Positions 6,037 to 11,431 of a stretch of 50,237 bases of DNA are shown in pieces. A program made the position numbers and the translations under genes. Origin of the DNA: Ferrovibrio sp. (lineage in GTDB: Bacteria; Pseudomonadota; Alphaproteobacteria; Ferrovibrionales; Ferrovibrionaceae); NCBI RefSeq assembly GCF_029255545.1, contig NZ_JANLJJ010000051.1, positions 1 to 50,237 of the forward strand, in the 5' to 3' direction. Positions within the stretch are counted from its first letter, which is position 1. Each line of letters opens with the position of its first letter. The notes under the pieces are model-generated. The model made no database searches. It was not told the origin of the DNA and worked only from the letters and a program-made list of their open reading frames with translations.

Positions 6037-7269
6037 TCAGGCTTCGTAGCGCTGGAACACCAGCGACGCATTGGTGCCGCCGAAGCCGAAGGAATTCGAC
6101 ATCACGCGGTTCAGCGTCACGTTGTCGCGGCGTTCGCGCACGATCGGGAAGCCTTCGGCGCCGGGGTCGAGATTCTCGATATTGGCCGAGGCGGCGATGA
6201 AGTTGTCGCGCATCATCAGGATCGAATAGATCGCTTCCTGCGCGCCGGCGGCGCCCAGCGAATGGCCGGTCAGCGACTTGGTCGAGCTGATCGCCGGCAC
6301 GGTTTCGCCGAATACCTCGCGGATCGCCTTCAGCTCGGTGATGTCGCCGGCCGGCGTCGAGGTGCCATGGGTGTTGATATAGTCGATCGGCGCGTTGCTG
6401 CCGCGCGCGCTTTCGGCCAGCGCCATCTGCATGCAGCGCACCGCGCCCTCGCCGGACGGCGCGACCATGTCGGCGCCATCGGAAGTGGCGCCATAGCCGA
6501 CCAGCTCGGCATAGATTTTGGCGCCGCGCGCCTTGGCATGCTCCAGCTCTTCCATGATGACGATGCCGCCGCCGCCGGCGATCACGAAACCGTCGCGATC
6601 CTTGTCATAGGCGCGCGAGGCGCGTTCCGGCGTGGCATTGTAGGCCGAGCTCATCGCCGGCATGGCGTCGAACAGGCAGCTGAGCGTCCAGTCCAGCTCC
6701 TCGCCGCCGCCGGCGAAGATGACATCCTGCTTGCCCAGCTGGATCAGCTCCGCGGCATTGCCGATGCAATGCGCCGAGGTCGAGCAGGCCGAGCTGATCG
6801 AGTAATTCACGCCCTTGATCTTGAAGGCGGTGGAGAGCACGGCCGAGCAGGTGCTCGACATCGTGCGCGGCACCATGAAGGGGCCGATCTTCTTCGGGCC
6901 GCCCTTTTCGCGCACGATATCGGCGGAAGCGACCAGATTCCTGGTCGAGGCGCCGCCGGAGCCGACGATCAGCCCGGTGCGCGGATTGATGATGTCGCCC
7001 GGCTCCAGGCCGCTATCGGCGATCGCCTGCTCCATGGCGAGATAGGCATAGGCCGCGCCATCGCCCATGAAGCGCTTCTGGCGCCGGTCGATGGCGGCGT
7101 CGAGGTCGATCTTGACGGTGCCATGCACCTGGCTGCGGAAGCCGAGCCTGGCATATTCCTCGGAAAAGACGATGCCGGAACGGCCGGCCTTCAGGCTGTC
7201 GGCCACGTCCTCGACGTTGTTGCCGATGGACGAGGTGATGCCGATACCGGTGACGACGACGCGACGCAT
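6037..7269 (-). CDS. fabB: 3-oxoacyl-[acyl-carrier-protein] synthase I, FabB type
   Basis: This is the condensing enzyme needed to elongate the cis-3-decenoyl intermediate made by FabA, so it is required for anaerobic-type unsaturated fatty acid synthesis. The 410-residue thiolase-fold protein shows the nucleophile C162 in [14 protein letters not shown], the first catalytic His in [11 protein letters not shown] and the second in [13 protein letters not shown]. The start at [10 protein letters not shown] has a GAGGAG ribosome-binding site about 10 nt upstream; the frame continues 11 codons further without support. It lies between fabA and fabI on the same strand, as in many alphaproteobacteria. 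Confidence 0.95.
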
Positions 7270-7372
7270 GGGCGTGAGACTCCTCAAATGCGGGCCGGAC
7301 AATGCCGGGCCGCAATCATACCGCAGGAACCGTTACAGTTTGCAGCGGCAGATGTTGTGATCAGGCCGCGGC

Positions 7373-7897
7373 TCAAGCAGCAGCAGGCGCCATGCCGTCG
7401 GGGAACACACCGACGCGCATGTCCTTGCATTCATAGGCCGGTTTGCCGTCGATATACATCGTGCCGTCGGCAATCGCGATGCCGAACTTGCGCAGCAGCA
7501 GCTTCTTGATGTCGATCTTGAAGGTGATCTTCTTGGCGGCCGGCGTGACCATGTCGGAGAATTTCACCTCGCCGACGCTCAAGGCGCGGCCCTTGCCGGG
7601 CGCCTTCATCCAGCCGAGGAAGAAACCAACCAGCTGCCACATGGCATCCAGGCCGAGGCAGCCCGGCATCACCGGGTCGTTTTCGAAATGGCAGGGGAAG
7701 AACCACAGGTTGGGCTTGATATCCAGCTCGGCCTCGATCTCGCCCTTGCCGTATTTGCCGCCGTCGCTGACGATTTTCACGATGCGGTCGAGCATCAGCA
7801 TGGGCGGCAGCGGCAGGCGGGCATTGCCCTCGCCGAACAGCTTGCCATGCGCGCAAGCCAGCAGATCCTCGTAGCTGTAACTGTTCTTCTGTTCCAC
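7373..7897 (-). CDS. fabA: 3-hydroxydecanoyl-ACP dehydratase/isomerase FabA
   Basis: FabA introduces the cis double bond at the C10 stage and branches the pathway toward unsaturated fatty acids. The 174-residue single hot-dog protein has the catalytic His70 in [14 protein letters not shown] and Asp84 in [12 protein letters not shown], both in the expected spacing. The start is GTG, preceded by a GAGGG ribosome-binding site. It is the first gene of fabA-fabB-fabI; 103 nt separates it from fabB. Directly upstream, in its leader, are three 18-bp tandem repeats. Confidence 0.95.
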
Positions 7898-8127: not shown

Positions 8128-8260
8128 CAGTTTCGTTGCACTTTGTTACATCTGTGCCATCGCCCGCCGGGCCGGTGCCGGGATCACTATCGGGCGGGAA
8201 AAACGGCCGGGAACGGCCAAGTATGACATTCCTGTGGCCGACGTCGCTGTCCTGCTATAT

Positions 8261-8689
8261 ATGCAGATCATGACCAGGGTGATCGAACCACGCTTCAGGG
8301 CCGCTGCCGAGCAGCTGCGGGCCGCCGGCCTGCGCACCACGCGGCAGCGTCTGGTGCTGGCCGATATCCTGTTCGAGCGCGGCAACCGCCATGTCACGGC
8401 GGAAAGCCTGTTCAGCGAGGCCGCCGAGCGCGGCGCCCGCCTGTCGCTGGCCACGGTCTATAACTGCCTGCACCAGTTCACCGCAGCCGGATTGCTCCGT
8501 ATGGTGACGGTCGATGCCGGCCGGGCCTATTTCGACACCAACCTGTCGGCCCACCATCATTTCTATTACGAGCGCACGGGCGAGTTGCGCGACATCCCGG
8601 AAGCCGATGTGGCGGTGGCGCGTCTGCCGGCCGCGCCCAATGGCGCCAAAATCGCCCGGGTCGACGTGATCGTCCGCCTGGAAGACTGA
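8261..8689 (+). CDS. irr: Fur-family iron response regulator Irr
   Basis: Irr is the alphaproteobacterial Fur paralogue that controls haem and iron genes in response to haem status. The product (142 residues from 8261, or 139 from the in-frame ATG at 8270; neither has a clear ribosome-binding site) has the Fur winged-helix region LRTTRQRLVLADILFERG and LATVYNCLHQFTAAGLL, and the Irr-type three-histidine stretch SAHHHFYYERTGE in the dimerisation domain. The C-terminal CxxC zinc motifs of true Fur are absent, which favours Irr. No N-terminal Cys-Pro haem regulatory motif is seen, so haem sensing may rely on the histidines. It is divergent from fabA and followed by an ICE-controlled rubrerythrin. 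Confidence 0.87.
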   Translation: MQIMTRVIEPRFRAAAEQLRAAGLRTTRQRLVLADILFERGNRHVTAESLFSEAAERGARLSLATVYNCLHQFTAAGLLRMVTVDAGRAYFDTNLSAHHHFYYERTGELRDIPEADVAVARLPAAPNGAKIARVDVIVRLED

Positions 8690-8733: not shown

Positions 8734-8750
8734 ATTAGAATAATTCCAAA
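8734..8750. promoter_or_regulatory. Iron control element (ICE / Irr box)
   Basis: ATTAGAATAATTCCAAA matches the published Irr-binding consensus TTTRGAAYNRTTCYAAA at 16 of 17 positions (only the first T differs) and is a near-perfect inverted repeat centred on 8742. It ends 5 nt before the -35 hexamer of the rubrerythrin promoter and lies just downstream of the irr gene itself. Position upstream of the -35 is compatible with activation or with repression by occlusion. Confidence 0.85.
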
Positions 8751-8755
8751 AAATC

Positions 8756-8783
8756 TTGACACGTCCCGGACGCGGTCCATAAT
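8756..8783 (+). promoter_or_regulatory. sigma70-type promoter of the rubrerythrin operon
   Basis: A perfect -35 TTGACA (8756-8761), a 16-nt spacer and -10 CATAAT (8778-8783; five of six). Transcription would start near 8790, giving a leader of about 115 nt. Confidence 0.85.
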
Positions 8784-8905: not shown

Positions 8906-9325
8906 ATGCCCGCACTCAAAGGTACCAAGACCCACGGCAACCTGAAGGATGCCTTCGCCGGCGAAAGCCAGGCGAACCGCCGCTACCTGTATTTCGCCCA
9001 GAAGGCCGACGTGGAAGGCTACAACGACGTCGCCGCCGTGTTCCGCTCCACCGCGGAAGGCGAGACCGGCCATGCCCATGGCCATCTCGAATTCATGGCT
9101 GAAGTCGGCGATCCGGCCACCGATCTGCCGATCGGCCCCACCGCCTCCAACCTGAAGGCCGCCGTTGCCGGCGAGACCCACGAATATACCGACATGTATC
9201 CCGGCATGGCCAAGACCGCCCGCGAGGAAGGCTTCGACGAAATCGCGGAATGGTTCGAGACCCTGGCCAAGGCCGAGAAGAGCCATGCCGGCCGTTTCCA
9301 GAAGGCGCTCGACACGCTCGGCTGA
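8906..9325 (+). CDS. Rubrerythrin-family diiron protein without rubredoxin domain
   Basis: Rubrerythrins reduce hydrogen peroxide at a diiron site in a four-helix bundle. The 139-residue product has the ligand pattern E20, E53-x2-H56, E90/E93 and E124-x2-H127 (motifs [41 protein letters not shown]). The chain ends after the bundle, so the C-terminal rubredoxin domain that normally delivers electrons is missing and an external donor is needed. A strong ribosome-binding site AGGAGG precedes the ATG. It is the first gene of a set with a GlpC-like Fe-S protein and DUF3501, and is controlled by a promoter with an Irr box. Confidence 0.9.
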
Positions 9326-9353
9326 TCGCCGCGCGTTTCACTGGTGACGTACC

Positions 9354-9379
9354 ACCCGGAGTCCGTCTGGACTCCGGGT
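9354..9379 (+). terminator. Strong intergenic stem-loop after rubrerythrin
   Basis: ACCCGGAGTCC (9354-9364) and GGACTCCGGGT (9369-9379) form a perfect 11-bp stem with a 4-nt loop GTCT. Only a short pyrimidine stretch (CTTC) follows, so it is more likely a partial terminator or an mRNA-stabilising processing hairpin than a full stop. It separates rubrerythrin from the downstream genes by 91 nt. Confidence 0.65.
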
Positions 9380-9416
9380 CTTCGACGTAGACGCACCCGC
9401 ATTCCCGGAGACGACC

Positions 9417-10781
9417 ATGCGCGAAGGCAGCCTCGAGGCGCCGACCCGGCATCCGCTGGACTGGCAGAATCCCGATTTCTACGATCTGGAAAAGCTCGAC
9501 GCCGAAATGCGGCGCGTGCTCGACATCTGTCATGGCTGCCGCCGCTGCTTCAATCTCTGTGATTCCTTCCCGCGCCTGTTCGATCTGGTCGACGCCTCGC
9601 CCACTGGCGAGCTGGACGAGGTCGAGTCGAAGGATTTCAAGCCGATCGTGGATGCCTGCACGCTCTGCGACCTGTGCTACATGACCAAGTGCCCCTATGT
9701 GCCGCCGCACGAGTTCAATCTCGATTTCCCGCATCTGATGCTGCGCTACCGCGCGGCCGAACGCGCGCAGGGCCACAAGGATGCGATCGGCGACCAGCTG
9801 TCGCAGACCGACCGCAACGGCAAGCTGGCCGGCCTGGTGGCGCCGATCGCCAACTGGGCGTCCGCGCGCGGCAACGGCGTGACCCGTCCGATCATGGAAG
9901 CGGTGGCCGACATCCATCACGACGCCGAGCTGCCGAAATTCAACGCCAAGACGCTGGTGGCGCGCGCCAAATCCGAGCCGGCCGCGATCAACACGACGGC
10001 GCCGGCCTATGGCAAGCGCAAGGCGGCGATCTACGCCACCTGCTTTGGCAACTACAACAACCCCGATATCGGCGTGGCGGCGCAGAAGATCCTGAGCCAT
10101 AACGGCGTCGAGCTGCGCGTCGAATATCCCGGCTGCTGCGGCATGCCGCGGCTGGAGCAGGGCGACATCGCCGATGTGGCGAAAAAGGCCCGCGTGGTGG
10201 CCGAAGCCTTCGCGCCGCTGATCGACCAGGGTTACGACATCGTGGCGCTGGTGCCGAGCTGCGCGCTGATGCTGAAATTCGAGTGGCCGCTGATCCTTCC
10301 CGATGATCCGCTGGTGAAAAAGCTGGCCCAGGCCACCTTCGACATCTCGGAATACATCGTCGACATCGCCAGGAAGGAAGGCCTCGCGCCCGGGCTCAAG
10401 CCGCTGGACGGTGGCGTCACCCTGCATCTGGCCTGCCATGCCCGCGCGCAGAATATGGGCGCCAAGGCCACCGAGCTGATGAAGCTGATCCCGGAGATGA
10501 AGCCGGGCCAGGATCTCGCCGTGATCGAACGCTGCGCCGGCCATGGCGGCTCATGGGGCGTGCGCAAGGACTTCTTCGAGGTCGGCATGAAAGTCGGCAA
10601 GCCGGTGGCGCGGACGGCGGTGAAGGAAAACAAGGCGCATATCGCCTCGGAATGCCCGCTGGCGGCGATCCATATCCGCCAGGGCATGGAACGTGAAGGC
10701 AAGGATGCAGCCGGCTTCAAGCTGCCGGCCAAGGCTGATCATCCGGTCGAGCTGTTCGCCCGCGCCTATGGCCTGATCTGA
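9417..10781 (+). CDS. GlpC/HdrD-like Fe-S oxidoreductase with CCG motifs
   Basis: This 454-residue protein has two ferredoxin-type clusters near the N-terminus: C38-x2-C41-x2-C44-x3-C48 and C81-x2-C84-x2-C87-x4-C92. The C-terminal half contains cysteine-rich CCG-type regions ([14 protein letters not shown] around residue 240 and CAGHGGSWG near 380), as in GlpC and heterodisulfide-reductase D subunits. These transfer electrons between flavoproteins, quinones or disulfides. No GlpA/GlpB partners are near, so it is not the glycerol-3-phosphate enzyme. Its place between rubrerythrin and DUF3501 suggests that it feeds electrons to rubrerythrin (inference). A GGAG ribosome-binding site supports the ATG. 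Confidence 0.85.
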
Positions 10782-10834
10782 GAAGTGTTTTTTGCTGAAG
10801 GGGCGGAGGGGCTTCGCGCTTTCGGAAGGATGAC

Positions 10835-11431
10835 ATGTACATGACCCTGAAGACCACGATCACCCACGCCGATATCCTGCCGCTGGACGAGTTCGTGAAG
10901 GTGCGCAAGGACAAGCGCGCCGAAGTGGTGGCCATCAAGAAGAACCGCCGCGTCGGCGTCGGCCCGTTCTGCACCTTCTATTTCGAGAATTACGCCACCA
11001 TGTGGTGGCAGATTCAGGAAATGCTGTTCATCGAGAAGGGCGGCGCCGAGCAGCTGGAAGACGAGCTGCGCGCCTATGAGCCGCTGATCCCGAAGGGCCG
11101 CGAGCTGGTCGCCACCTTCATGATCGAGATCGAGGACGCGGTGCGCCGGCCCGTCGTGCTGGCTCAGCTCACCAATATCGACCAGACCGTGATGCTGGAA
11201 TTCGCCGGCCACAAGATTCGCGCCGTGCCGGAAGACGATGCCGAACGCAACCGCGAGGACGGCAAGACCTCTAGCGTGCATTTCCTGCGCTTCCCCTTCA
11301 CGGCCGAGCAGGTCGCCGAATTCCGCAAACCCGGCACCCGCGTGCTGCTGGCGGTCGAGCATCCCCATTACGGCCATATCGCCGTGGTGCCGGACGCCGT
11401 GCGCGAAAGCCTGGCAAAGGATTTCGCCTAA
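10835..11431 (+). CDS. DUF3501 family protein
   Basis: I recognise this 198-residue protein as DUF3501, a family of unknown function found next to rubrerythrin and GlpC-like genes. Characteristic stretches are LKTTITHADILPLDEF, RKDKRAEVVAIKKNRRVGVG, FYFENYATMWWQIQEML and VLLAVEHPHYGH. The mid-region with invariant-looking Tyr/Trp/Gln (YATMWWQIQEM) and the His-Pro-His near the C-terminus could bind a cofactor or metal, but no known motif fits. No signal peptide or membrane segment. GGAAGG precedes the start, 53 nt after the Fe-S gene, so the three genes are probably one operon. Confidence 0.85.
   Translation: MYMTLKTTITHADILPLDEFVKVRKDKRAEVVAIKKNRRVGVGPFCTFYFENYATMWWQIQEMLFIEKGGAEQLEDELRAYEPLIPKGRELVATFMIEIEDAVRRPVVLAQLTNIDQTVMLEFAGHKIRAVPEDDAERNREDGKTSSVHFLRFPFTAEQVAEFRKPGTRVLLAVEHPHYGHIAVVPDAVRESLAKDFA

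Follow-up and report, generated by a model that had tools for sequence, protein, structure and literature searches.

A recurring rubrerythrin, RFO and DUF3501 gene unit in Ferrovibrio with a predicted Irr box at its promoter

Rubrerythrins without a rubredoxin domain are known from an aerobic-type system, defined by Cardenas et al. 2016 (PMC5114695), in which the rubrerythrin (RBR), a CCG/Fe-S oxidoreductase (RFO) and a DUF3501 protein are co-localised and co-occur. The accessible text of that paper finds the complete trio in 185 genomes and RBR-DUF3501 in 25, describes DUF3501-RFO fusions, reports that Thermoproteales have DUF3501 with RBR and no RFO, and offers the hypothesis, as of 2016, that RFO makes up for the lost rubredoxin. 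The trio is restated in the accessible parts of PMC7050145, PMC7852563, PMC7465337 and PMC7760498, the first of which adds that it reaches the mitochondria of some protists. The original prediction for the locus described here, made from the DNA alone, had taken the three genes for an under-described system; as the trio, its co-occurrence and the RFO-for-rubredoxin idea were in print in 2016 and were taken up by the later papers, that view is not sustained and no novelty is claimed for the trio itself. The trio is widespread, and the literature searched yielded no biochemical or expression data on it.

The window analysed here is a whole stretch of 50,237 nucleotides from Ferrovibrio sp., in which positions 8906-11431 carry the genes for RBR, RFO and DUF3501 in that order on the plus strand. 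The rbr gene (8906..9325) encodes an aerobic-type rubrerythrin of 139 aa (PF02915, 106.7 bits, cut-off 22.8), rfo (9417..10781) a protein of 454 aa (CCG domain PF02754, 42.7 bits vs 20.6; Fer4_17, 22.7 vs 22.2), and the third gene (10835..11431) a DUF3501 protein of 198 aa (PF12007, 206.4 bits, cut-off 25). With no rubredoxin, an RBR resembling 4DI0 and sulerythrin, a DUF3501 protein and a co-localised RFO, the window genes can be assigned by sequence to the aerobic-type rubrerythrin system. In an even sample of 299 genomes across the phylum, DUF3501 occurs in 17, the window's genome included, and the trio is contiguous in all 17; RBR at 78-100% identity is found in precisely those genomes and in none besides, the next-closest RBR having 57% identity and the remainder 55% or less (E limit 1e-20). 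The recurring neighbourhood that had been predicted is thus borne out, and the observation named beforehand as counting against it, DUF3501 mostly away from rubrerythrin, did not materialise. A second set, drawn from genome contigs, holds the best 80 of 577 loci, which as top scorers are close relatives and are nearly all titled as Alphaproteobacteria, Proteobacteria or groups of these. In this set the trio is ordered on one strand in 74/80 loci, RBR is present in 75/80 and RFO in 77/80; four of the six loci outside the ordered trio are contigs that end within 1.6 kb upstream, as are four of the five loci without RBR. These counts support the three genes as one recurring unit. The fifth locus without RBR, L079, is a true exception, with DUF3501 and neither RBR nor RFO within 8 kb. 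L053, from a record titled Roseomonas, has an RBR-DUF3501 pair with RFO missing, and in L061 (2468-3918) RFO lies in two overlapping reading frames, from a frameshift or an assembly error.

In agreement with the predicted absence of a rubredoxin, RBR contains no cysteine at all, and its Rubrerythrin domain covers residues 12-134. The seven residues that we take to be the di-iron ligands (E20, E53, H56, E90, E93, E124 and H127) are kept in 96/96 aligned RBR rows, and the site would reduce H2O2 to water, as is established for the family. The published RBR of H. thermophilus (ferriperoxin) is said to use a different electron donor. The best PDB matches of the window protein are 9onm, 4di0, 8fuh, 9onr and the sulerythrins, and the classical rubrerythrin 1b71 is a much weaker match (E 1e-27); the accessible text of PMC5114695 places 4DI0 and 1J30 in the RBR group that is nearest to the window protein as judged by these PDB matches. 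Two more rubrerythrin-domain genes are present in the same genome (C17:37757-38215 and C115:54627-55019, both over the Pfam cut-off).

The DUF3501 protein has no conserved cysteine column among 81 aligned rows, the best column being Cys in 13/81, and a role as Fe-S or thiol carrier was rejected on this ground. Many polar residues are invariant in it (R38, E51, Q59, E62, E77, R105 and H176). The model (pLDDT 94) has a lone clear match, the solved DUF3501 structure 3fjv of unknown function (Foldseek E 2e-19, VIA Z 25.5). As all remaining matches (CrdA, adaptin ears) have Z scores of 7.3 or below, in the unspecific range of the tool, the fold is named a beta-sandwich and no further, with helical additions and at best an Ig-like character. 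Because cofactor motifs are absent, and from the company that the gene keeps, DUF3501 would most likely act as a docking or assembly partner of RBR, and of RFO where RFO exists.

Viral copies bear directly on this assignment. In IMG/VR, 418 of 426 pattern matches encode an RBR relative, and the best 80 of these 418 were analysed with flanks of up to 8 kb, some of them cut. In this best-scoring set the seven presumed ligands are intact in all 80 proteins, none of which has a pair of CxxC motifs; DUF3501 adjoins RBR in 20/80, nearly all family-invariant residues being kept in these 20 proteins, and neither RFO nor Irr is found in the available flanks of any of the 80. As DUF3501 is paired with RBR in 20 and RFO in none of these best 80 of 418 loci, DUF3501 appears tied to RBR itself, and the phage RBR-DUF3501 pairs argue for RBR as the protein on which DUF3501 acts and for an RFO that can be supplied from elsewhere. 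Since phages and a few bacterial loci such as L053 have RBR-DUF3501 without RFO, RFO cannot be the sole donor. The viral RBR loci comprise L121-L124, L202-L218, L237 and L277, all on IMG/VR contigs; L123 (6283-7293) is assigned to a T4-like phage because it carries a T4-type sliding clamp, a clamp loader, a translation repressor and an endolysin, and the larger viral contigs hold scattered phage-type genes only. A rubrerythrin is annotated in the isolate Pelagibacter phage Mosig, with no DUF3501 next to it, and the accessible phage literature on rubrerythrin offers one viral rubrerythrin, in silage, with DUF3501 unmentioned. The company of DUF3501 and RBR without RFO, in viral loci and in Thermoproteales (PMC5114695, accessible text), would also suit a factor that matures the di-iron site of RBR or loads it with metal, with RFO alone as the reductase, and the invariant polar residues could handle metal; we regard this as unlikely, however, given that no known metal-site arrangement is recognised in DUF3501, that 3fjv is untitled as to function, and that the DUF3501-RFO fusions in the accessible text of PMC5114695 link DUF3501 to RFO too.

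Upstream of the trio lies irr (8261..8689, plus strand), which encodes a Fur-family iron response regulator (PF01475) that passes the cut-offs of both NF045678 IrrA (195 bits, cut-off 150) and NF045677 Irr (183.1, cut-off 170); its start codon is either the ATG at 8261 or that at 8270, and the profile scans took 8252-8686. The HXH heme motif of Irr (PMC7762939) is present as HHH, and the window protein shows no heme regulatory motif of the CP type at its N terminus. Divergent from irr, fabB and fabA occupy 6037-7888 on the minus strand. Between irr and rbr we find a predicted Irr box, TTAGAATAATTCCAA (8735..8749), with one mismatch to TTAGAA-N3-TTCTAA, and 6 bp below it a sigma-70-like promoter, TTGACA-16-CATAAT (8756..8783, plus strand), with 11/12 consensus matches. 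The same layout, with the box 6-7 bp above the rbr -35 element, is seen in 9/9 congeners that have the trio, and according to the accessible text of PMC6956336 the Irr of R. sphaeroides bound a site much like this box, TTAGAAATATTCTAGA, in a gel shift. At the level of sequence, the operon in this alphaproteobacterial genus would thus be served by one promoter; as the box stands directly above the -35 element, Irr most likely represses the operon, and would do so until iron/heme or peroxide removes it.

TTAGAA-N3-TTCTAA ranks first in a blind count of dyads upstream of 96 rbr genes. Within one mismatch the box is found upstream of rbr in 42/65 cases with Irr near (the other 23 have none) and in 7/31 without, against 15/1920 random windows, which were taken from the same loci and may in part overlap true boxes, and 3/1920 shuffles. 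The genome-contig loci overstate the linkage to Irr because they are the best 80 of 577 and nearly all carry alphaproteobacterial or proteobacterial titles; among the 16 loci of the evenly drawn phylum sample, the window's genome apart, four have Irr near the trio. A search of open papers found none that links Irr to rubrerythrin or to katG, ahpC or dps, and the apparent Irr control of this otherwise known trio is described in none of the papers searched.

Within the genus the boxes keep a distinct company. The window's genome has three within one mismatch, at the rbr promoter, in the ahpC/oxyR-like gap and at the start of dps, the latter two being L141 and L142 (C36:20300 and C39:10714). Across 10 genus genomes there are 29 boxes, of which 25 adjoin rbr (9), ahpC/oxyR (5), dps (5), katG (4) or a VIT-family gene (2). 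A reversed-pattern control gives 17 sites in the genus, so that the count of 29 is little above it and the location alone is striking, as 0/15 of the control sites retrieved adjoin any of these genes. The VIT-family membership is Pfam-confirmed; katG is above the curated cut-off in 3/4 loci, as partial proteins, the fourth (L165, partly masked) being matched by phmmer; and the AhpC-, OxyR- and Dps-like proteins score under the NCBIfam equivalog cut-offs, with those families as their best or near-best matches. At dps the box and the start codon are no more than about 60 nt apart, a spacing that suits repression by Irr. The remaining four boxes are at L162, with no family assigned, at L164 and L171, loci of two congeners whose Irr-box-like site stands where a gene for an M3 oligoendopeptidase begins, with no clear peroxide or iron link, and at L183, in the gap between genes for a FecA-like receptor and a molybdopterin-binding protein. 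G307, a genus genome that is 72% complete, has neither box nor DUF3501. The company of katG, ahpC/oxyR and dps is consistent with the trio as a peroxide reductase.

The box might instead be bound by another Fur-family regulator, PerR or Fur, with the adjacent Irr a coincidence. Bacillus PerR boxes resemble TTAGAA-N3-TTCTAA, the distal genes of the box set are PerR-like, and the 7/31 rbr upstreams with a box and no Irr near could be explained in this way. We nonetheless consider it quite improbable, for the neighbouring protein passes both Irr cut-offs and reaches only 65.4 of 200 with the PerR models, and the box is closely similar to the one that Irr binds according to the accessible text of PMC6956336. 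Irr thus remains our preferred regulator, possibly exchanged for another where it is not near: a fourfold ATAG/CTAT site resembling that of OxyR, with no more than 4 of its 16 positions mismatched, is present in 14/31 rbr upstreams without Irr near and in 0/65 with it, compared with 10/1920 random windows. These 14 loci are L061, L069, L086, L101, L111, L120, L127, L128, L129, L132, L139, L140, L123 and L124, the last two being viral contigs that are near-identical to each other.

RFO was correctly predicted as an Fe-S protein with two cubane motifs and CCG regions, although the second CCG motif proves degenerate. The ferredoxin motifs are C38-x2-C-x2-C-x3-C and C81-x2-C-x2-C-x4-C (eight Cys), the first CCG motif comprises C209, C240, C241 and C282, and the second C340, C373-[S/A]-G and C413; these 15 cysteines are invariant in 91/91 rows, an alignment that leaves out three loci in which RFO is truncated or split. 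The model (pLDDT 91.8) matches LutA with Z 23.8 over 230 residues and the HdrB chains with Z 18.7-19.7 over 239-243 residues, which assigns it the CCG-domain fold; its best full-length match is M. smegmatis EtfD (Z 22.3, 373 residues, nearly the full length). A single, distant RFO relative (27% identity) is present in the window's genome. The original prediction had also noted the lack of a GlpA/GlpB partner, which we confirm to this extent: neither lies beside the trio, and GlpB has no match over cut-off anywhere in the genome. With scores of 180.2 of 278 (NF008369) and 107.5 of 279.9 (TIGR03379), RFO falls under both GlpC cut-offs, and its identification as GlpC was rejected.

A supply of electrons by the pool of quinones or thiols had further been proposed. 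It would parallel the relatives of GlpC or HdrB/HdrD, and the sequence kinship of RFO to the GlpC and LdhH models and its fold kinship to HdrB and LutA lend themselves to such a view. The HdrB-type motif consists of two complete CX31-39CCX35-36CXXC units, against which RFO has C-x30-CC-x40-CxxM and C-x32-C[S/A]G-...-C, that is, a second motif without CC and no closing CxxC in either. The RFO model contains no membrane helix, the highest 19-residue hydropathy (1.64) lying within the CCG domain; together with the sub-threshold GlpC scores this led us to reject a quinone-linked membrane role, and with the incomplete HdrB-type cysteine set the quinone or thiol pool is left unsupported as a source and, in our judgement, improbable. 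We favour RFO as a soluble protein which, through its two-cluster ferredoxin-like domain and one complete CCG motif, would deliver the electrons otherwise supplied by a rubredoxin domain. The EtfD-like fold would also be compatible with a flavoprotein as donor, and this is our first guess for the donor to RFO.

The gap between rbr and rfo contains a hairpin (9354..9379, plus strand) with an 11-bp stem and a 4-nt loop. Stems of at least 9 bp occur within 100 nt downstream of rbr in 67/99 distinct gaps, compared with 16/95 before rbr, 12/117 after DUF3501 and 18/287 random stretches. The hairpin sequence varies between loci and the T run is often missing; with four T in the next 6 nt for 11/67 stems, a plain terminator was rejected, and a terminator scan of the window gave none at this position. 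We take the hairpin for a weak terminator or an element that stabilises the message, in either case favouring RBR, and it would probably leave more rbr message than rfo-DUF3501 message.

Taken together, we think it rather probable that the trio is a peroxide reductase repressed by Irr, with RFO as electron donor, DUF3501 as docking or assembly partner and the hairpin favouring rbr. The three-part peroxide reductase of the original prediction is retained to this extent, the recurring unit and the katG, ahpC/oxyR and dps company of the Irr box fitting it, and its quinone or thiol donor is given up. A main role of RBR in oxidising iron, in the manner of ferritin, or in buffering it, with RFO-DUF3501 for iron release and peroxide merely the oxidant, would suit an iron regulator whose boxes are common to dps and a VIT-family gene, but is quite improbable as the same boxes mark the peroxide genes katG and ahpC/oxyR and all seven rubrerythrin-type ligands are kept. 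A broader proposal extends the peroxide reductase reading: Irr, otherwise mostly regarded as a regulator for iron and heme, may serve as a PerR-like peroxide regulator in an alphaproteobacterial branch, with RBR-RFO-DUF3501 as its most constant target and OxyR-like sites where Irr is not near, and RBR-DUF3501 may be the minimal, independently mobile unit of the system, carried by T4-like and other large phages, with RFO left for the host to provide; we see this as evenly poised between right and wrong. A dedicated regulator, a clean site, a katG/Ahp/Dps footprint and a two-gene phage version make cheap, direct tests of each part feasible.

The locus compares with known systems as follows. With the aerobic-type rubrerythrin system (PMC5114695) it shares the rubredoxin-less RBR, the GlpC-related CCG/Fe-S oxidoreductase, DUF3501 and their co-localisation; the accessible text of that paper makes no mention of Irr, the Irr box, the rbr-rfo hairpin or phage copies. 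Sulerythrin (1j30) and the Burkholderia rubrerythrins (4di0, 8fuh, 9onm) are full-length matches of RBR (E 3e-54 to 2e-69), although from other organisms. RFO shares the ferredoxin-like and CCG layout, or the CCG fold, with GlpC, LutA, HdrB and EtfD, and differs in scoring below the GlpC cut-offs, in its degenerate second CCG motif and in having no membrane part. The mitochondria-targeted version consists of the same three proteins, RFO and DUF3501 being described in the accessible text as alphaproteobacterial in origin, whereas its genes are unlinked and the products are sent to mitochondria. Finally, the Irr-controlled mbfA and ccpA of R. sphaeroides (PMC3413700, accessible text) likewise have an Irr box in the promoters of oxidative-stress genes, whereas MbfA is a rubrerythrin-like domain fused to a VIT-type exporter and is distinct from RBR-RFO-DUF3501.
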